DNA of 64,000 bases from Candidatus Solirubrobacter pratensis (GTDB lineage Bacteria > Actinomycetota > Thermoleophilia > Solirubrobacterales > Solirubrobacteraceae), in NCBI RefSeq assembly GCF_000425945.1, contig NZ_AUEK01000014.1:1-64000 (forward strand). The letters are read 5' to 3'. The notes beneath the pieces are model-generated. The model was not told the origin of the DNA. It saw only the letters and a program-made list of their open reading frames with translations, and made no database searches. Made by a program: the position numbers and the translations under genes. This document shows positions 17,201-64,000 of this stretch, piece by piece (positions within the stretch are counted from its first letter, which is position 1; every line of letters begins with the position of its first letter).

Positions 17201-18502
17201 ATGATGCCTTCACGCGGAGGGCTGCGGCTCTCTGTTTTCGCTATGACGTGCGCGGCGGGCCTGGCGGCGGCGAGCTCTGCTTCCGCCAACGACGTCGTGC
17301 TCTGGGCCTGTCACGGGCCGACGGGCAAGGCGCTCGGCGCCGGGCCGTTCGGCGGCGCGGCCGAGTACGGCACGGGCTGCGGGGTGGACGGGACGGCGCT
17401 CGCAGCCGGCGGCGTCTTCTCGCAGAGCTTCGGCCTGGTCGTGCGTCCCGGCGTCGTGCTCAAGCGCGTGTCGCTGCTGCGCGGCGCGTCCGGCCTCGAC
17501 ACCGAGAACCGCTACTCCGCGACGTACGAGGGCGCCGAGTTCGACGGCTCCTCCACCGACGTCAGCGGTGCAGTGTCCGCGCCGATCGCGGACACCGGCA
17601 ACCTCAAGGGCGGCTTCGTCAAGTTCGCCACCACCCGCGCCGGCACCGGCGTCTCGGTCCAGCGCGTCGGACTCACGGTCGCCGACACCACGCCGCCCGC
17701 CGGGACGGGCGGCATCGCGAACCACACGAACGGCAGCGTCGCCGTGGCCGTGTGGATCAACGACACCGGCGTCGGGCTCGACCACGCCGACCTGTACGTC
17801 GACGACGCGTATTACGACGGCATCCGGTTCAGCGACAACTGCGCCGACATGACGCCCGGCGACGGCGTCGTCGACCTGCCGATCGAGAACTCCTGCCCCG
17901 CCCACGTCGAGAGGTCCATCGATCTCGACACGAGCCGGTTCGCCGACGGCGAGCATCGGGTGACGGTCAAGGTCTACGACGCCGCCGGCAACGCGACCGA
18001 CTACATCAGGAACGCCGTGACCGAGATCGGCAACCACCCGAACCTCGGGAGCAACACGGCGACCCTGAGCATCGGCAGCGGCAACGCCGCTGGGCAGAAC
18101 GGCTCGGCCGGCTCCGGCGGCGGCACCGGTGGCGTGGCCGGAGCTTCGGCGACGTCGTGCGCCTCTCCGAAGCTCTCGATGGAGCTCTCGCAGAAGCCGT
18201 TGAAGATCTCCAAGGGCGTGCCGGTGCTCAAGTACGGCAAGCGCTACCGCTTCCGCGGCCACCTGACCTGCGTGGTCAAGGGCAAGCGGCACTCGGCGCC
18301 CGTCAAGACGCCGATCGAGTTGTTCAACACGATCGGCAAGAAGACCTACCGCAAGAGCGGCGCGACCGTCCGCAGCAAGGGCGCGATCACGCTGGTGCTG
18401 GCGTACAAGTCCTCGCGGACGCTCGTGTTCCGCTACACGAACGCGGACGGCAGGCGCTCGCAGGTCAAGCTCAAGGTCAAGGTCACCAGGAGGTCGCGAT
18501 GA
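17201..18502 (+). CDS. Secreted Ig-like repeat protein A1
   Basis: 433 residues. ATG 17201 has AGGAGG upstream (17185-17190). An N-terminal signal peptide (FAMTCAAGLAAASSASA) is followed by a lectin/jelly-roll-like region, a DTTPPAG-linked Ig-like domain with YVDDAYYDG and FADGEHRVTVKVYDAAGN, a Gly/Ser-rich linker (~residues 300-320), then a ~115-residue basic C-terminal domain starting ATSCASPKLSMELSQKPL and containing VLKYGKRYRFRGHLTC. That domain is repeated almost intact in the protein at 19381-20241. The stop overlaps the next start (ATGA). No LPXTG or C-terminal anchor. Function unknown; cell-surface or matrix protein inferred. Confidence 0.82.
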   Translation: MMPSRGGLRLSVFAMTCAAGLAAASSASANDVVLWACHGPTGKALGAGPFGGAAEYGTGCGVDGTALAAGGVFSQSFGLVVRPGVVLKRVSLLRGASGLDTENRYSATYEGAEFDGSSTDVSGAVSAPIADTGNLKGGFVKFATTRAGTGVSVQRVGLTVADTTPPAGTGGIANHTNGSVAVAVWINDTGVGLDHADLYVDDAYYDGIRFSDNCADMTPGDGVVDLPIENSCPAHVERSIDLDTSRFADGEHRVTVKVYDAAGNATDYIRNAVTEIGNHPNLGSNTATLSIGSGNAAGQNGSAGSGGGTGGVAGASATSCASPKLSMELSQKPLKISKGVPVLKYGKRYRFRGHLTCVVKGKRHSAPVKTPIELFNTIGKKTYRKSGATVRSKGAITLVLAYKSSRTLVFRYTNADGRRSQVKLKVKVTRRSR

Positions 18503-19257
18503 GACGATGGGTCGCCGCCGCGGCCGTGCCGGCGGCGCTGCTCGCCGGCGGCGCCGCGCTCGCCTCCGGCCACACGGCGCGGGCCACGCAGACGGGCGGT
18601 CTCGCGCTCTCGCCCACGGTGCTGCAGGCGGCGCCGGTGCCCGGCCGGCTCGGCACGCTGACGATCGCCAACCGCTCCGCCGCGGCGCTCGCCGTCACGG
18701 TCACGCCGCGTCCGTGGACCGAGTCGGCGGCCGGGGCGTTCGCGCCCGACCGCCGGTCGGCGCTCTCGCAGGTGAAGGTCGACGCCGGCTCCTTCACGCT
18801 CGCGGCGGGCGCCGAGCAGACGGTGGCGGTCACGCTGACCGGCGCGCCCGCGGGTGGCTCGCTCTACGGTGCGCTCGACGTGACCGGCCTGCCGGTCGAC
18901 GCCGCCAAGCGCCGCGGCGTGGTGCTCGGCTACCGGCTCGTGGGCACGCTCCGCCTCCCGCCGGCGCAGAAGCGGTACGGACTGACCGCCGGGCAGGTCA
19001 AGCGCTCGGGCAAGGCCGTCGTATTGCCGCTGACCAGTACAGGGAACACGATCGACGCGATCTCCGGCCATGTGTCGGTCAAGGGCGCCCGCGGCACGCT
19101 CAACGACAACGTCGCGGGCCTGCGGGTCCTTCCGGGCAGGAAGGTGAACCTCGTGTTGGCGACATCGGTCCGGAAGGGCTCCTACAGCGCTACGGTGACG
19201 TTGAAGCAGGGTGGGGCCAAGCTCCTGACGGCGAAGCGGAAGTTCAGTGTGCGATGA
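18499..19257 (+). CDS. Secreted WxL-interacting-like (DUF916-like) protein B1
   Basis: 252 residues, signal peptide then LSPTVLQAAPVPGRLGTLTI, a beta-sandwich with TPRPW, ADRRS-type loop and VTLTGAPAGGSLYGALDVTG, then a second beta domain. The layout (N-terminal 'variable sandwich' with a tail region FTLAAGAEQTVAVTL followed by G-rich strand) resembles the DUF916 half of WxL-interacting proteins of Gram-positive surfaces. A close paralogue lies at 20803-21600. ATG 18499 follows AGGAGG and overlaps the A1 stop. Unlike DUF916 proteins, no C-terminal transmembrane helix is visible. Assignment is by pattern only. Confidence 0.75.
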   Translation: MRRWVAAAAVPAALLAGGAALASGHTARATQTGGLALSPTVLQAAPVPGRLGTLTIANRSAAALAVTVTPRPWTESAAGAFAPDRRSALSQVKVDAGSFTLAAGAEQTVAVTLTGAPAGGSLYGALDVTGLPVDAAKRRGVVLGYRLVGTLRLPPAQKRYGLTAGQVKRSGKAVVLPLTSTGNTIDAISGHVSVKGARGTLNDNVAGLRVLPGRKVNLVLATSVRKGSYSATVTLKQGGAKLLTAKRKFSVR

Positions 19258-19380
19258 CTGGCTTCGCTCGCGTCGGATTCAGGAGACGGTCGACTAGGAT
19301 CGGCGGGGTGCGTGGAGCAATGCCCATGGTCAAGGGCGCTCCGATCGCGTGGCCCGCGTGTTAGCCGCGGTGGGGTGGTC

Positions 19381-20241
19381 ATGAAGCGAGTCCTTCTTAG
19401 AGGAACAACGGCCCTTGTCGGGGCATTTGCGATCGCGGTCGGCGCGGCATCCGTCGCGGCCGCCGACGAGCCGGTGTCCGGAGCCGTAGGCGGCTATCGC
19501 AGCCCCGCGGCGGGCACGCTGCAGCTCGACGTCACCGGTCGCGCCACGCAGGACCCGTTGCTCGACGCCTCGGCGGCGGTTGACGGTGCGCAGGTCGCGA
19601 GCGCGACCTACTGCACGGGCTGCAGCTTCGCGACGGTGACGCTCAAGGTCGACACGACGGCGTATCCCGACGGCCCCCATCACCTCACGGTCACGATCCG
19701 CGACACGGCCCACCGGTCGTACGCGATCGAGAAGGACCTCGAGGTCTGGAACCATCCGCCGACGGGCTCGCCGACCGCGATCATGAACATCGGCAGCGAC
19801 TCTGGGGGCGCCGTGCCGCAGGGCGGGGGCAACGCGCCCGGCGGCGGGCGGGGCGGCGCGCCGGGCGGCGGCGTGGAGGGCGCGTCCGCGACGTCGTGCA
19901 TGTCGCCGCGCCTCTCGATGTTCCTCGCCCAGAAGCCGCTGCGCGTGTCCAAGGGCGTGCCGGTGCTGCTCAAGAACAAGCGCTACCGCTTCACCGGGCG
20001 GCTCACGTGCCTGGTCAGCGGCAAGCGCAAGTCGGCGGCCGAGGGCACGAAGATCTCGCTGCGCAACACGGTCGGCCGTAAGACGGTCACCAAGCCGGGG
20101 ACGAAGGTGGGCACCTCGGGCAAGATCACGCTGCTCCTGAAGTACCCCAGCTCGCGCACGATCGAGTTCCGCTTCACCGCCGGCGACGGCAAGACGTCCA
20201 AGGTCCGCATCAAGGTGCGCATCGCACAGAGGAAGGGTTAG
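19381..20241 (+). CDS. Secreted Ig-like repeat protein A2
   Basis: 286 residues with a signal peptide (ALVGAFAIAVGAASVAAA). An Ig-like domain (SAAVDGAQVASATYCTGC, DTTAYPDGPHHLTVTIRDTA) is followed by a Gly/Pro-rich linker and a C-terminal domain that matches protein A1 over its whole length (ATSCMSPRLSMFLAQKPL, VSKGVPVLLKNKRYRF). It lacks the first domain of A1. A 123-bp gap with TAGGAT at 19295-19300 precedes it, so it may have its own promoter. Paired Cys in both domains suggest disulphides outside the cell. Confidence 0.8.
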   Translation: MKRVLLRGTTALVGAFAIAVGAASVAAADEPVSGAVGGYRSPAAGTLQLDVTGRATQDPLLDASAAVDGAQVASATYCTGCSFATVTLKVDTTAYPDGPHHLTVTIRDTAHRSYAIEKDLEVWNHPPTGSPTAIMNIGSDSGGAVPQGGGNAPGGGRGGAPGGGVEGASATSCMSPRLSMFLAQKPLRVSKGVPVLLKNKRYRFTGRLTCLVSGKRKSAAEGTKISLRNTVGRKTVTKPGTKVGTSGKITLLLKYPSSRTIEFRFTAGDGKTSKVRIKVRIAQRKG

Positions 20242-20250
20242 ACAAAGAAA

Positions 20251-20754
20251 ATGCGCGCGATCCGTGCAGGGATCCTCACGCTCGGTGTGCTCGCGGTCGC
20301 GGCCGTGCCGGCACGCGCCCAGGTGGCGCCGGTCGACGGCGGGACGAACGTCGGCGGCTTCGTCGACAGCTACATGGAGCTGAGCCTCACGCAACCGTCG
20401 GGCCTGTCGAAGTTCAAGAAGGCCGGCACGTACTCGACCTCGTTCACCGCGTCGGCGACCGCCACGCTGGAGGGCACGCAGCTGAGCCTCGCCGACGGCG
20501 AGGTCGCCTCGGGCTCGAAGGTCGGGTTCATGGCCGCCGGCTCCAAGCGCCTCAAGGACCCGCTCGAGGCCCGGGTGGGAAGCGCCGCCTTCCAGCCGCT
20601 CGACGCGTCCGTCGATCCGCTGCTGATGCGCTGGAACAAGATCCTCGCGCACGAGGACGCGAAGGTGACGCTGCGCCAGAAGGTCCGCGGCAAGCCGTCG
20701 ACGAAGCCCTACCGCAAGGTGCTGTGGGCCACGTTGTCCTCTGAGATGCCCTGA
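20251..20754 (+). CDS. Small secreted WxL-like domain protein
   Basis: 167 residues: signal peptide (GVLAVAAVPARAQ), then a single beta domain running MELSLTQPSGLSKFKKAG, YSTSFTASATATLEG, and ending VTLRQKV...YRKVLWATLSSEMP. The same order of strands and closing sequence occurs in the last ~120 residues of the M6-type protease at 62631 (LSLTLGAPARFGVFTPG, YAASTTATVTS, AISFKQAI...YSRTLTFTLSTTTP). The pattern (P/FG start, closing G-T/S-Y-x-x-x-L-x-x-T-L-S) recalls WxL domains, which bind the wall. It starts 9 bp after A2. The role is inferred. Confidence 0.75.
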   Translation: MRAIRAGILTLGVLAVAAVPARAQVAPVDGGTNVGGFVDSYMELSLTQPSGLSKFKKAGTYSTSFTASATATLEGTQLSLADGEVASGSKVGFMAAGSKRLKDPLEARVGSAAFQPLDASVDPLLMRWNKILAHEDAKVTLRQKVRGKPSTKPYRKVLWATLSSEMP

Positions 20755-20802
20755 TCCCGGCATCTCGCACCGAATCACCAGTAACCGAAAAGGAGTCACG
20801 GA

Positions 20803-21600
20803 GTGAAGCTCGGAAGGAGTCGGCACCTGGCCGGCGCTGTCGCCCTCGCGGCCGCAGGGCTGGCGTCGGGTGGTGTGATCGCGCAGGCCGATGAAGCTGC
20901 GCCCCAGGCGAAGGCGGCCGCGGGCGGAGTGTCGCTGACGCCTGAGACGGTCGAGCACACCGCCCGCAAGGGCAAGCTGGGGTCGGTCACGGTCAAGAAC
21001 ACGACGAGCGACACGCTGAAGGTCACCGTGCGCGTCCGCCCGTGGGCCCAGAACCGCACCACCGGCGTCGTCCAGGCGAACCTGAAGGTCTCGCTGAGCA
21101 AGTACGTCGCGGCGACGTCGTCGTCGTTCAATCTCGCGGCCGGCGCCAGCCGCGCCGTCACGCTCAACCAGCGCCGCACGCCGCCCGGCGGCTCGCTGTA
21201 CGGCGCGATCGAGGTCTTCGGCAAGCCGCGCAACGCGAAGGCGCGCAACGGGATCATCCCGAACTACCGCGTCGTCGGGCGTCTGCGCGCGAACCCGTCG
21301 AAGAAGCGGGTCGCGCTGCGCGCGGGCACGATCGGCTTCGTCGGCAAGGGCGCCGGCCGCCAGCTGGTGCTGCCGATCCGCAACACCGGCAACACGCTGG
21401 ACCCGATCGGGGGCAGCGTCACGTTCACCGGCCCGACCGGCAAGACGAACCCGCTGAAGGCGATCACGCCGATCCCCGGCCAGGTCGTCAACCTCGTCGG
21501 CGGCCACGTCTCGGGCTTCAAGAAGGGCCGCTACACCGCGACCTTCTCGATCACGCAGGGCACCAAGCGCTACACGGCCAAGCGGACGTTCAGCCTCTGA
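20803..21600 (+). CDS. Secreted WxL-interacting-like (DUF916-like) protein B2
   Basis: 265 residues, paralogue of the protein at 18499-19257: the signal peptide is followed by VSLTPETVEHTARKGKLGSV, VRVRPWAQNRTTG, SSFNLAAGASRAVTLNQR, PPGGSLYGAIEVFG, YRVVGRLRANPSKKR and a second beta domain ending TKRYTAKRTFSL. GTG 20803 has AAGGAG at 20790-20795. It closes the five-gene secreted cluster. In firmicutes, DUF916 proteins bridge WxL proteins and peptidoglycan; a similar partnership with the preceding small protein is suggested here. Confidence 0.76.
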   Translation: MKLGRSRHLAGAVALAAAGLASGGVIAQADEAAPQAKAAAGGVSLTPETVEHTARKGKLGSVTVKNTTSDTLKVTVRVRPWAQNRTTGVVQANLKVSLSKYVAATSSSFNLAAGASRAVTLNQRRTPPGGSLYGAIEVFGKPRNAKARNGIIPNYRVVGRLRANPSKKRVALRAGTIGFVGKGAGRQLVLPIRNTGNTLDPIGGSVTFTGPTGKTNPLKAITPIPGQVVNLVGGHVSGFKKGRYTATFSITQGTKRYTAKRTFSL

Positions 21601-21659: not shown

Positions 21660-22043
21660 GTGAGCAACTCCGCGCCACCTCCGCTGCACGAGCTGGAGAG
21701 CGAGGTCATGGACGAGGTCTGGGCGCGTGGCGAGGCGACCGTCCGCGACGTGCAGGAGGCGCTCAACCGCCGCAGCGAGAAGTCGCGCGCGTACACGACG
21801 CTGCTGACCGTGATGACGCGGCTCGACGGCAAGGGCATGCTCGTGCGCCGGCGCGCGGGGCGGCTGGACGTCTACGCGCCGGCGCTCTCGCGCGAGGACT
21901 ACCTCGAGCGGCGGGCCGAGGCGGAGGTCTCGGCCGTGGTGGAGGACTTCGGCGATCTCGCGCTGGCGCACTTCGCCCGCCATGTGGGCAGGCTGGACCC
22001 AGAGCGGCGCGCGCGGCTCAGGCGGCTGGCCGAGGGTGACTAG
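21660..22043 (+). CDS. BlaI/MecI-family transcriptional repressor
   Basis: 127 residues with the typical BlaI winged helix: PLHELESEVMDEVWARGEAT, VRDVQEALNRRSEKSRAYTT and TVMTRLDGKGMLVRRRAGRL. The C-terminal helix forms the dimer and usually contains the cleavage site. GTG 21660 lies 6 bases after a -10 element. The last 8 bp overlap the M56 peptidase start. In BlaI-BlaR systems the membrane peptidase inactivates the repressor on a signal; here the same pairing is seen. Confidence 0.9.
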   Translation: MSNSAPPPLHELESEVMDEVWARGEATVRDVQEALNRRSEKSRAYTTLLTVMTRLDGKGMLVRRRAGRLDVYAPALSREDYLERRAEAEVSAVVEDFGDLALAHFARHVGRLDPERRARLRRLAEGD

Positions 22044-22914
22044 GACCGAAGCGGGGCGTTTGCGCCGGGCCGAGTTCGCGGTCGCCGCGTTCGGCTCGAC
22101 CGCGTTCCTGTTGTCGCTCGTCTTCGTCCTGGACGCGGTCCGCTTCCACCACGACGTGCTGCTCGACGGCGTCGAGGGACTCGGGCGCGGTGAGCCGCAC
22201 ACGGTCCCCGTGCTGCTGGTCCTCCTGGCGCTGTTCGACGTGATCGCGCTCGTGCGCGTGGCGTTCTCGCTCTCGCGCGGGCTCACGGCCCACCGCCGCT
22301 TCGCCGCGCGGCTGCCGCTGCGGGGCGAGCGCGACGTCGCCGGCCGGCGCGTGACGGTCGTCGCCGGGGCGCGCGCGATGGCGTTCTGCGGCGGGCTGCT
22401 GCGCCCGCGCATCTACATGTCCGAGGGCGCGCTGACGCGGCTGGCGGCGCCGGAGCTGGAGGCGATCGTCGCGCACGAGGCGCACCATGCCGCGCGCCGC
22501 GACCCGCTGCGCATCCTCGTCGCGCGGGCGATCGGCAGCGCGTTCGGGCGGCGCGAGCAGACGCTGGCCGAGCTCTCGGCCGACGCCGCCGCCGCGCGGC
22601 GCGTCGGCGACGCGCCGCTCGCCTCGGCGCTGCTGGCGTTCGACGCCGACGCGGCCGGCATCGCCGCCGTGCGCGTCGATCACCTGACGGGCTGCGCGCC
22701 GGGTGCCGAGGTGTCGCGCACGATGGCGATCGCCGCCGGCGTGGTCGTCTGCGCGCTCGTCGCCGAGCTCGTGTGGACGCTGGCGGTTCCGGGGCATCCG
22801 AGGATCTGCGTGCCACTGTCGTCCGCGCCCGCCGTCGCGCTGCTCGCCCGCCTGCTGGTCATGATGCCGGCGTGGCTGGGGCTGCGCCGCGCGACGGCGC
22901 TCCTGTCCGCCTAG
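22036..22914 (+). CDS. M56-family membrane metallopeptidase (BlaR1/HtpX-like)
   Basis: 292 residues. Transmembrane helices are predicted near residues 12-35, 55-78, 225-245 and 255-280. HEAHH at residue 147 gives the HExxH zinc site, facing the cytoplasm, with ELSADAAAARRV supplying the downstream Glu/Asp. It lacks the extracellular penicillin-binding sensor domain of BlaR1, so its signal is probably not a beta-lactam. GTG 22036 overlaps the BlaI stop. It should cleave BlaI-type repressor directly or through another protease. Its 3' end overlaps the convergent RTX gene by 4 bp. Confidence 0.88.
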   Translation: MTRTEAGRLRRAEFAVAAFGSTAFLLSLVFVLDAVRFHHDVLLDGVEGLGRGEPHTVPVLLVLLALFDVIALVRVAFSLSRGLTAHRRFAARLPLRGERDVAGRRVTVVAGARAMAFCGGLLRPRIYMSEGALTRLAAPELEAIVAHEAHHAARRDPLRILVARAIGSAFGRREQTLAELSADAAAARRVGDAPLASALLAFDADAAGIAAVRVDHLTGCAPGAEVSRTMAIAAGVVVCALVAELVWTLAVPGHPRICVPLSSAPAVALLARLLVMMPAWLGLRRATALLSA

Positions 22915-24104
22915 CCTCTCTTGCGGGTTTCGCAGTCCGCCGCGATCTTCGTGCGCCTGCGGTTGCCGGCGAAGCGCGAGACGACGACGGTGTCGTTGCC
23001 GGGGCCGCACGAGATGCGCGCGCTGCCCTTGCCGATGATCGCGGTGATCGAGTCGGCGCCGGCGCCCGCGACGACGCGCGTGGCGCCGCCCGCGGTGACG
23101 CGGATCGTGTCGTTGCCGCCGCCGCCGAAGATCGTGCTCGAGACGCCGTTGCCCTGCAGGAAGTCGTCGCCGTCGCCGCCCATCAGCGTGTTGCGGCCGC
23201 GGCCGCCGTAGATCGTGTCGGCGCCGAAGCCGCCGCTGATGAAGTCCCGCTGGCCGCCGCCCTTCGCGCCTGTGTGGCGCGCGTCGCCCCACAGGACGTC
23301 GTCGCCGCCCTCGCCATAGAGCTTGTTGGAGCCGCCCTGCCCGTTGAGCCGGTCGTTGCGCGTGCCGCCGTGCTTGGTCCCGTCGCCCGACCAGGTGATG
23401 CCGCGCGTCGGGTCCGCCTCCGGCGCCTGCTCGACCACCGTCTCGCAGTTGACGATCCTGCCCTCGCGTAGGGCCTGCTGGTTGGAGACGCCGCCCGGCC
23501 GTTTGCGCGGGTTGATGAAGAGGGTGTCGGCGCCGTCGCCGCAGTCGACGCTCGTCACGGCGCTGCCGGAGTTGACGAAGACCTGGTCGTTCCCCGGGCC
23601 GGCATCGATCCGGTCCGGGCCGGTGCCGGAGTGGATCGTGTCGTCGCCGTTGCCGCCGAACAGGTCGTCGCCGCCCGAGCCGCCGTCGATCGCGTCGTTG
23701 CCGTCGCCGCCGATGATGCGGTCGGGGGCCTCGTTGCCGCTCAGCGAGTCGTCGCCCGTGCCGCCCGCGAGCGTGTCGTGGCCGACGCCGCCGAGCAGGA
23801 TGTCGTTGCCGTTCCCGCCGTCGGCGTCGTCGTCGCCAGAGCCGCCGTTGATCGTGTCGTTGCCGTCGCCGCCGTCGAGCTCGTCGGGGCCGGTGTCGCC
23901 CGTCAGGGTGTCGTCGCCGCCGAGACCGCGGATCATGTCGTGGCCGCCGAGGCCTGAGATGTTGTCGGTGGCGGCCGTTCCCGTCAGCGTCTGTGCGGCG
24001 TTGGAGCCCACGATCGTCTTGGCGGTGGCGGTGGCGGTGGCGGTGTACGTCGAAGCCGCGGCAAGAGTGAGCAGCAGCGCGGAGCGGATGTGTTGATTGG
24101 ACAC
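22911..24104 (-). CDS. Secreted RTX-like calcium-binding repeat protein
   Basis: 397 residues with an N-terminal signal peptide (SALLLTLAAASTYTATATATA). Most of the length is nonapeptide repeats of the GGxGxDxL type (GGDGNDTINGGSGDD, GGNGDDTIHSGTGPD and others) in two blocks, residues ~45-180 and ~235-350, which form calcium-loaded beta rolls. Between and after are non-repeat beta segments, including a Cys-rich strand VTSVDCGDGADTL. No catalytic domain is visible. It is probably a calcium-binding surface or matrix protein; secretion is by signal peptide, not by type I export as in classical RTX toxins. Confidence 0.85.
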   Translation of the reverse strand: MSNQHIRSALLLTLAAASTYTATATATAKTIVGSNAAQTLTGTAATDNISGLGGHDMIRGLGGDDTLTGDTGPDELDGGDGNDTINGGSGDDDADGGNGNDILLGGVGHDTLAGGTGDDSLSGNEAPDRIIGGDGNDAIDGGSGGDDLFGGNGDDTIHSGTGPDRIDAGPGNDQVFVNSGSAVTSVDCGDGADTLFINPRKRPGGVSNQQALREGRIVNCETVVEQAPEADPTRGITWSGDGTKHGGTRNDRLNGQGGSNKLYGEGGDDVLWGDARHTGAKGGGQRDFISGGFGADTIYGGRGRNTLMGGDGDDFLQGNGVSSTIFGGGGNDTIRVTAGGATRVVAGAGADSITAIIGKGSARISCGPGNDTVVVSRFAGNRRRTKIAADCETRKRG

Positions 24105-62630: not shown

Positions 62631-64000
62631 TCAGGGGGTGGTGGTCGAGAGCGTGAACGTGAGCGTGCGCGAGTAGCTGCCCGTCCGCAGTGCGTCGTTG
62701 GCGCCGATGGCCTGCTTGAACGAGATCGCGACGGCGTCGTTGGAGACCGGCGCCGTCCACGCGGCCTTCGAGAGCGAGACCTGGAGCGGCTCAGGCAGCG
62801 CGAACGACCCGTTGGAGAGGTGCCCGGGGTCGGAGACGCTCAGCGCCGCCTCGCCCGCGGTGGAGGTCACGGTCGCGGTCGTCGAGGCGGCGTACTCGTT
62901 CGCGACGCCCGGCGTGAACACGCCGAAGCGCGCCGGCGCGCCCAGCGTCAGCGAGAGCGTCGCCGGCACCGTGCCGCCGACATCTGCCAGCTGCGGCGTG
63001 ACGGCGATCGGGGCGCTCGCGGCGAAGTAGTAGAACGCCTTCGTCGCCAGCTCGAGCCCCTGCGCCGACGCGGCGGTCGGGAACGTGCCGGCCGGGATCG
63101 CGATGTCGAGCGAGTCCGGATTGATCGTCACGCCGGAGACCGGGACGGCCGAGCCGTCGGCGCGCGTGAGCGCGATGTCGGACGGCTTGACCGGCGACTC
63201 CTCGCGCACGTAGACGTAGTGGCCGTTGTTGATCGAGTTGGAGTCGGCGATCCGGCGCTGCAGCTCGACGCTCGTGTCGACGTGCAGCGTCGTCGGGCTC
63301 GTGAGCTTCGCGCCGCTGAGCGCGACCGGCACGCTCAGCGCCGAGGCGCCGGCCTTCGTGACGCTGATCGTCGCGGTGTCGTCGGCCGTGTAGGGCGAGT
63401 TGGCCGGGTTGGCCGCGTCGTAGTGCGAGATCGCGCCGAAGTCGATCTTCACGCCCGTCGCCGGGTCCTCGAACGTGTCGCCCGGGCCCCACAGCGCGCC
63501 CTGCGTGTCGAGACCGGTGAGCGAGTTGTTGACCGGGCGCCAGACGCCGGTCTTGTTCAGCGGGCCGCCGACCGCCGGGTCGTCGTAGTACTGCTTGGAG
63601 ATGATCTGCAGGTCGCTGTTCGTGCCGATCTGCTCCCACTGCGACGCGTCGATCTTGTAGAGCAGCACGCCCTGGTACTTGGCCCGCCCATCGAGCCCGT
63701 CGACCCCGAGCTTGGTGCGGAACTCGGCCACGTAGGCGGTCGAGACGCCGGTGCGGACGACGACGAGCTTGCTGGCGCCGGGCGTCTCCAGCGGTGTGAT
63801 CGCGTGCGTCGTCGTGCCCGGCTGGGAGACGACGTCGACCTGGTCGTCGCGCAGCCAGCGCAGCTTGTACTTCTCGTAGCCCGAGTAGTCGTTGGCGTGG
63901 CCGCCGATGTTGCCCATGATGTTCCAGCCGCCGGCCCAGAAGAACTGGTTCACGCGCGTGCCGTTGACCGTCAGCGGCGAGTAGATGTAGAGGTCGGGCA
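62631..64000 (-). CDS. Secreted M6-type metalloprotease, 3' part (5' end beyond window)
   Basis: At least 455 residues; the frame remains open at the right edge, so the N-terminus, including the catalytic HExxH region, is missing. The first visible part, PDLYIYSPLTV then NQFFWAGGWNIMGNIGGHAN and YSGYEKYKLRWL, matches the segment after the zinc motif in M6/immune-inhibitor-A-like proteases (GLPDLYD, SWDLM). A middle beta domain (~residues 180-320) and a C-terminal domain follow (LSLTLGAPARFGVFTPG to YSRTLTFTLSTTTP). That domain matches the small secreted protein at 20251-20754, a WxL-like module. Probably an extracellular wall-associated protease. Confidence 0.75.
   Translation of the reverse strand, partial: PDLYIYSPLTVNGTRVNQFFWAGGWNIMGNIGGHANDYSGYEKYKLRWLRDDQVDVVSQPGTTTHAITPLETPGASKLVVVRTGVSTAYVAEFRTKLGVDGLDGRAKYQGVLLYKIDASQWEQIGTNSDLQIISKQYYDDPAVGGPLNKTGVWRPVNNSLTGLDTQGALWGPGDTFEDPATGVKIDFGAISHYDAANPANSPYTADDTATISVTKAGASALSVPVALSGAKLTSPTTLHVDTSVELQRRIADSNSINNGHYVYVREESPVKPSDIALTRADGSAVPVSGVTINPDSLDIAIPAGTFPTAASAQGLELATKAFYYFAASAPIAVTPQLADVGGTVPATLSLTLGAPARFGVFTPGVANEYAASTTATVTSTAGEAALSVSDPGHLSNGSFALPEPLQVSLSKAAWTAPVSNDAVAISFKQAIGANDALRTGSYSRTLTFTLSTTTP

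Follow-up and report, generated by a model that had tools for sequence, protein, structure and literature searches.

The first 64,000 nucleotides of contig NZ_AUEK01000014.1 of “Candidatus Solirubrobacter pratensis” (the window) contain five adjacent genes for secreted proteins, A1, B1, A2, C, and B2 (Table 1), and this cluster probably provides the docking proteins by which a divergent system of WxL type displays exoenzymes on the surface. An earlier note, made from the letters of this DNA alone, had described the cluster as a WxL-like surface system and missed the main point: the domain found in C closes at least 62 loci of the genome, including one at the end of the window. The genome (G000; 6.64 Mb in 28 contigs, 96.15% complete, 5.91% contamination) belongs to the same genus as Solirubrobacter soli, an actinobacterium of the class Thermoleophilia; Solirubrobacter is a soil dweller.

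The C domain, its carriers, and its linkage to B

The cluster consists of five tightly packed open reading frames (ORFs) on one strand. An ATGA overlap joins A1 and B1, and the remaining gaps are 123 bp (B1-A2), 9 bp (A2-C), and 48 bp (C-B2). All five products, which the earlier note called secreted, begin with a signal-peptide-like segment. The note's remark that neither an LPXTG motif nor a membrane anchor is visible was also borne out: no LPXTG motif was seen by eye in the five proteins, and none has a transmembrane (TM)-like segment beyond residue 40, where the highest 19-residue Kyte-Doolittle mean is 1.22. Apart from its signal peptide, C is little more than the C domain.

A search with the single C sequence returned C-like domains at the ends of long proteins. 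The alignment made from these was reduced from 35 to 32 rows by dropping one unrelated protein (from genome G118) and two contig-edge pieces, and its profile gave 70 matches, representing 67 loci, in the analyzed genome. Sixty-two loci were read; the other matches were second pieces of a locus already counted (three), pieces at contig edges (two), and weak hits (three, with E values of 1.4e-7 to 1.6e-5 and 28 to 46 profile positions each). In every one of the 62, the C domain forms the end of the protein and the last residue is proline; each carrier has one C domain. The end motif Y...[LIV]T[FW].L....P is present in 60 of the 62, the exceptions being the C protein of the window and one long protein. 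It was also found in 11 of 5677 other ORFs (at least 100 amino acids, from this genome and from stretches of congeners). As the profile identifies all 11 as C-domain proteins (E value of 2e-36 or better) that the single-sequence search had missed, the motif occurs in none of the remaining 5666.

A crude signal-peptide rule is passed by 49 of 65 C-match rows. Among the 55 long carriers (frames of at least 350 amino acids), 45 have a named Pfam domain at an E value of 1e-8 and 35, by our count, have one of hydrolase type. These include peptidases (M1, M14, M28, S8, S9, S15, and reprolysin), glycoside hydrolases 2, 3, 92, and 95, phosphodiester glycosidases, 3-keto-disaccharide hydrolases, amidases, phosphatases, and an esterase. 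The carrier at the window end, for which no Pfam match was found at the same threshold, has a stop-to-stop frame of 1198 amino acids that runs off the window to C12:66227. Since a C-type tail domain closes dozens of secreted enzymes, an enzyme coat may be kept on the cell surface in this way.

Each of the seven Solirubrobacter genomes has at least 27 C matches, 27 being the number of candidates that the search scored. In wider searches, with up to 10 candidates scored per genome, 12 of 399 genomes from the class and 4 of 396 from the phylum were C positive, and all of these belong to one family. Three contigs of the analyzed genome (C1, C11, and C14; loci L039, L035, and L038) start inside C-domain DNA, so that the assembly was probably broken by near-identical C copies; the starts of C14 and C11 have an exact 301 bp in common.

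Of 146 genomes of the family surveyed at an E value of 1e-5, 19 were positive for B and 15 for C, with every C-positive genome also positive for B. In all eight C genomes outside Solirubrobacter, a C gene lies upstream of B on the same strand, at a distance of ∼60 bp to just under 3 kb, and in several of them A lies between or before C and B. The WxL gene is likewise upstream of the gene for the WxL-interacting protein (WxLIP) in all seven annotated Bacillota loci, an eighth locus having no annotation. Iteration of the profile added C-like genes located upstream of the G115 B gene and of the second B in G008, and revealed none near B in the short contigs of G056 and G012. One genome, G011, has an additional C gene without a B nearby in the match lists. 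An extended cluster in L257 (G114:C3:97000-110000) places three C-like genes, one B homologue, and two A homologues on one strand.

The linkage to B in eight of eight C genomes outside Solirubrobacter, together with the terminal position of C in every locus read (three weak matches left out), argues against the domain being an ordinary Ig-like spacer that has no anchoring role and was spread by gene conversion. Such a spacer would suit the beta-sandwich-like predicted structure of C and the near-identical copies at contig starts, which are exact over up to 301 bp, and we nevertheless regard it as highly improbable.

B1 and B2 as remote relatives of WxL-interacting proteins

Profile comparison identifies B1 and B2 as remote homologues of the complete WxLIP, comprising both its DUF916 and its DUF3324 half. 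The earlier note had compared them with the DUF916 half and proposed a profile-profile check, which supported the resemblance and extended it to DUF3324. A 30-row B profile matched a profile of seven annotated DUF916-DUF3324 proteins with a probability of 68.9% (E value of 4.5e-5) over 230 columns spanning both domains. With six distant B homologues added as intermediates, none of them a Pfam DUF916 member, the probability was 91.3% (E value of 9.5e-7, 236 columns), and with a genuine PF06030 protein also added it was 95.0%. The six additions were longer sequences, one of which was already in the profile as a piece. In controls on the 30-row comparison, 100 column shuffles gave at most 0.9%, the reversed alignment gave 0.3%, and cross-comparisons with WxL or C profiles gave less than 1%.

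The structure predicted for B2 (predicted local distance difference test [pLDDT] score of 89.3, built on a 14-row alignment) has as its first-ranked PDB match 9i25_C, a WxLIP bound to a long WxL protein (E value of 2.2e-9, TM-score of 0.58), and the WxLIP 9i1y ranks 5th and 8th. Sequence searches of the PDB with the B and C profiles found no relative. B is a relative of WxLIP by both sequence profile and predicted fold, although from the fold alone WxLIP and PapD-like chaperones would hardly be told apart.

A strong TM helix follows the second Ig domain in all six of the distant B homologues examined (from G002, G004, G056, G012, G115, and the second copy of G008). In three genomes, a helix-hairpin-helix domain (HHH_3) lies behind this helix (Table 1), suggesting that the helix lies in the membrane of the bacterium itself. 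A 2023 paper proposes that the TM helix of WxLIP enters the host membrane (PMC10599100), a proposal into which B homologues with a domain behind the helix fit poorly.

Relation of C to WxL, rival explanations, and proposed mechanism

Judged from sequence, C works like a WxL domain in its architecture and setting and lies outside the Pfam WxL family. Its resemblance to a WxL end covers only the last ∼16 residues. The end motif present in 60 of the 62 loci is close to the distal WxL motif YXXX(L/I/V)TWXLXXXP given in PMC5817068. The tryptophan of the window's C lies one position ahead of the aromatic residue of other family members, and the two Trp-x-Leu motifs are out of register in the aligned Solirubrobacter C domains. 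Small C-like proteins encoded beside TM-bearing B genes (five distant proteins) have W-T-L in register in four cases and W-G-V in the fifth; this W-T-L aligns with A-T-L of Solirubrobacter C, and the profile of these distant proteins matches the C profile at 98.4%.

Several results weigh against the proposed WxL-type docking function. First, PF13731 matched none of the 32 C domains at an E value of 1 and nothing in the whole genome at an E value of 10, and neither Pfam nor NCBIfam, scanned directly with the five cluster proteins, gave a WxL or DUF916 match; PF06030 was absent from B1 and B2 at an E value of 10. Second, the profile probabilities for C against WxL were weak, at 0.4% and 1.4%, or 3.2% and 5.7% with distant members included. 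These last two matches coincide with the first and the last of the WxL motif regions, and their scores were above 60 of 60 shuffles each, while 2 of 60 shuffles reached the score obtained without distant members. The similarity is not specific, since widened C profiles score similarly (3.2% and 2.9%) against WxLIP. A global alignment of C with WxL scored 5.7, compared with up to 15.6 in circularly shifted controls; the corresponding shuffle null was set aside, one shuffle having scored 127.7, and was redone on match columns only. The earlier note's claim that C ends like a WxL domain stands for the terminal residues and the architecture and is not borne out by Pfam, and the profile similarity is weak and lacks specificity.

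Third, the match of B to WxLIP depends on direction and on membership: it fell to 56.4% when query and target were exchanged and to 36.2% (90 columns) when the profile contained just the six distant homologues. Against the genome's own genuine PF06030 protein it reached 40.3% over 184 columns, or 14.8% once the B profile was widened. Neither B1 nor B2 has a C-terminal TM helix, their chains ending after the second Ig domain, and the profile alignment has a gap in B at the place of the motif NQIDKxxxYFDLK. Fourth, no C gene lies within 2 kb of the genome's own B3, or of B3 and B4 of G135, in the stretches fetched. Finally, predicted structures bring in pilus proteins. Many pilus chaperones match the B2 model with E values of 6.9e-9 to 3e-6, nearly equal to those of WxLIP. 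The C model (pLDDT score of 83.4, eight alignment rows) has mostly pilus subunits and TasA among the best 50 of its 895 PDB matches, led by CsuA/B (E value of 1.6e-3), the TasA fibre, CfaB, and Caf1, none of which attains an E value of 1e-3; the WxL chain 9i25_A is in the PDB, yet is not among these best 50.

These structural matches are the strength of the main rival explanation, by which B would be a soluble PapD-like chaperone and C a pilin-like subunit of an usher-less donor-strand fibre (archaic Csu- or TasA-like; no usher search was made), decorated by the long C-tailed proteins. The absence of a membrane anchor from B1 and B2 would also suit it. We consider such a fibre unlikely: the best PDB match of B2 is a WxLIP, to which the B profile is also linked, six distant B homologues are membrane anchored, and the carriers of this genome have a single terminal C domain each and no repeated subunits. 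A second rival would make C a C-terminal signal for export or sorting, recognized, possibly removed, and unrelated to WxL, with B only aiding folding. The strictly terminal position with a final proline and the lack of a significant WxL profile match are consistent with such a signal. It would account poorly for a stand-alone C that has little beyond the domain after its signal peptide, and for distant C proteins that keep Trp-x-Leu beside membrane-anchored WxLIP-like proteins, and we therefore judge it distinctly improbable.

Under the WxL-type docking reading, the C domain would be a C-terminal Ig-like attachment module that requires a free C-terminal strand and occurs once on its own (C) and at the end of ∼60 long secreted proteins of the genome. 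B1 and B2, as two-Ig proteins of WxLIP type, would keep C domains bound to the wall, with strand complementation as the probable means. A1 and A2 would be Ig-like partners within the same complex, and the system would retain peptidases, glycosidases, and phosphatases on the cell surface. Capture and holding of C by B are proposed by analogy with WxL and WxLIP, for which PMC10599100 gives strand insertion as an AlphaFold2 prediction. The free C terminus of C and the chaperone-like fold of B suit strand capture, and pilus chaperones bind the terminal carboxylate of their subunit. Anchoring through complexes, as the earlier note supposed, is plausible.

If this reading is correct, the compact docking cluster and the dozens of C-tailed enzymes of one actinobacterium would extend the WxL scheme beyond its known range and show that it can be used to display enzymes instead of making host contact. 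A literature search, mostly at title level, found no paper linking WxL to surface proteins of Solirubrobacter or Thermoleophilia. A fuller picture is tentative, and we lean slightly away from it: a Trp-less WxL-type tail would display ∼60 secreted proteins, mostly enzymes, via a few soluble WxLIP-like docking proteins, membrane-anchored Trp-x-Leu forms would survive in related genera, and WxL/WxLIP and pilus subunit/chaperone would be variants of one strand-capture theme.

Duplication history, other features, and known systems

The paralogy described in the earlier note holds for both pairs, though the duplicated set did not arise in one event. B1 and B2 share 40% identity across 227 aligned positions (E value of 3e-46), and each has a counterpart in all five congener clusters compared. 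The B tree unites the own B2 with the five congener B2 proteins (support of 99/94) and the own B1 with the five congener B1 proteins (support of 92/81, below the star line of the tree); as each groups with its counterparts, the duplication predates these species. The tree places the own B3 firmly in no group, and a fourth group (B4) occurs in five congeners and is not among the three B matches of the analyzed genome. A1 and A2, which have a C-terminal domain in common, share 50% identity across 200 aligned positions (E value of 6e-52), a stretch longer than the ∼115 residues first proposed. None of the five congener clusters has an A2 counterpart between B1 and C; of the six clusters compared, this genome's alone contains A2.

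The middle of A1 scores 21.0 bits against the Pfam family Big_3_2, under the cutoff of 23.3, and two cysteines of the A C-terminal domain are conserved in 11 of 11 aligned rows. A homologues were found in 13 of 15 B-C clusters examined (the own cluster, those of five congeners, G111, G140, G017, G008, and G114, and two of G011), and none was found in those of G002 and G004.

Table 1. Positions of the cluster genes, other features of the window, and HHH_3-bearing B homologues of other genomes
Feature	Position	Strand	Description
A1	17201..18502	+	433 amino acids, secreted; bacterial Ig-like middle, sub-threshold; C-terminal domain in common with A2
B1	18499..19257	+	Secreted two-Ig-domain protein; remote WxLIP (DUF916+DUF3324) homologue without TM helix
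A2	19381..20241	+	Shorter paralogue of A1; start ATG at 19381
C	20251..20754	+	Small protein; signal peptide and single WxL-like C-terminal domain
B2	20803..21600	+	Secreted two-Ig-domain protein; remote WxLIP homologue without TM helix
Regulator and metallopeptidase	21660-22914	+	BlaI/MecI-like small regulator and membrane metallopeptidase-like protein, BlaR1-like by eye
Repeat protein	22911-24104	-	Secreted; GGxGxD-like repeats abundant, calcium-binding type by eye
Long protein, C-terminal part	62634..63998	-	455 amino acids ending in the C domain; from the C-domain profile search
HHH_3-bearing B homologue	L255:6886-8649		E value of 9.3e-20
HHH_3-bearing B homologue	L261:4911-6674		E value of 1.5e-17
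HHH_3-bearing B homologue	L262:2819-4930		E value of 1.3e-16

The single PF06030 locus of the genome above the cutoff is a gene other than B1 and B2. At this locus (L176; G000:C1:214000-226000), a metallophosphatase with a terminal C domain is encoded directly upstream of the genuine PF06030 protein, which has a TM tail by eye; farther upstream is a HupE-like protein, also recognized by eye, with a histidine just past its signal peptide. The neighborhood recalls that of Ang-2, near whose genes PMC12537917 reports metallophosphatase and DUF916 genes together. Because of this known association, and because PF06030 occurs in only one of the seven Solirubrobacter genomes, the two genes, which had looked like a perfect WxLIP-WxL pair, were not used as support.

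Among known systems, the WxLIPs of Bacillota (PF06030 plus DUF3324) resemble B in having two tandem Ig-like domains, aligned over ∼230 columns, in providing the best fold match for B2, and in being encoded just downstream of a small attachment-domain gene. Unlike them, B1 and B2 lack a Pfam match, the NQIDKxxxYFDLK motif, and the C-terminal TM helix, and each Solirubrobacter genome has several B paralogues (three or four). Like WxL (PF13731), C occurs both as a stand-alone small protein and as a very C-terminal domain on long secreted proteins, and it carries the distal YxxxLT-aromatic-xL...P motif. It differs in lacking a Pfam match, in having, in Solirubrobacter, alanine for the tryptophan of distant members in the first motif and phenylalanine in the second, in an extra residue ahead of the final proline, and in the number of its carriers in this genome (∼60, with enzyme domains in at least 35). 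The predicted folds of B and C resemble, respectively, the chaperone and the donor-strand subunit of archaic chaperone-usher pili (CsuC and CsuA/B) and the TasA fibre; unlike in those systems, single C domains end long proteins and relatives of B are anchored in the membrane.

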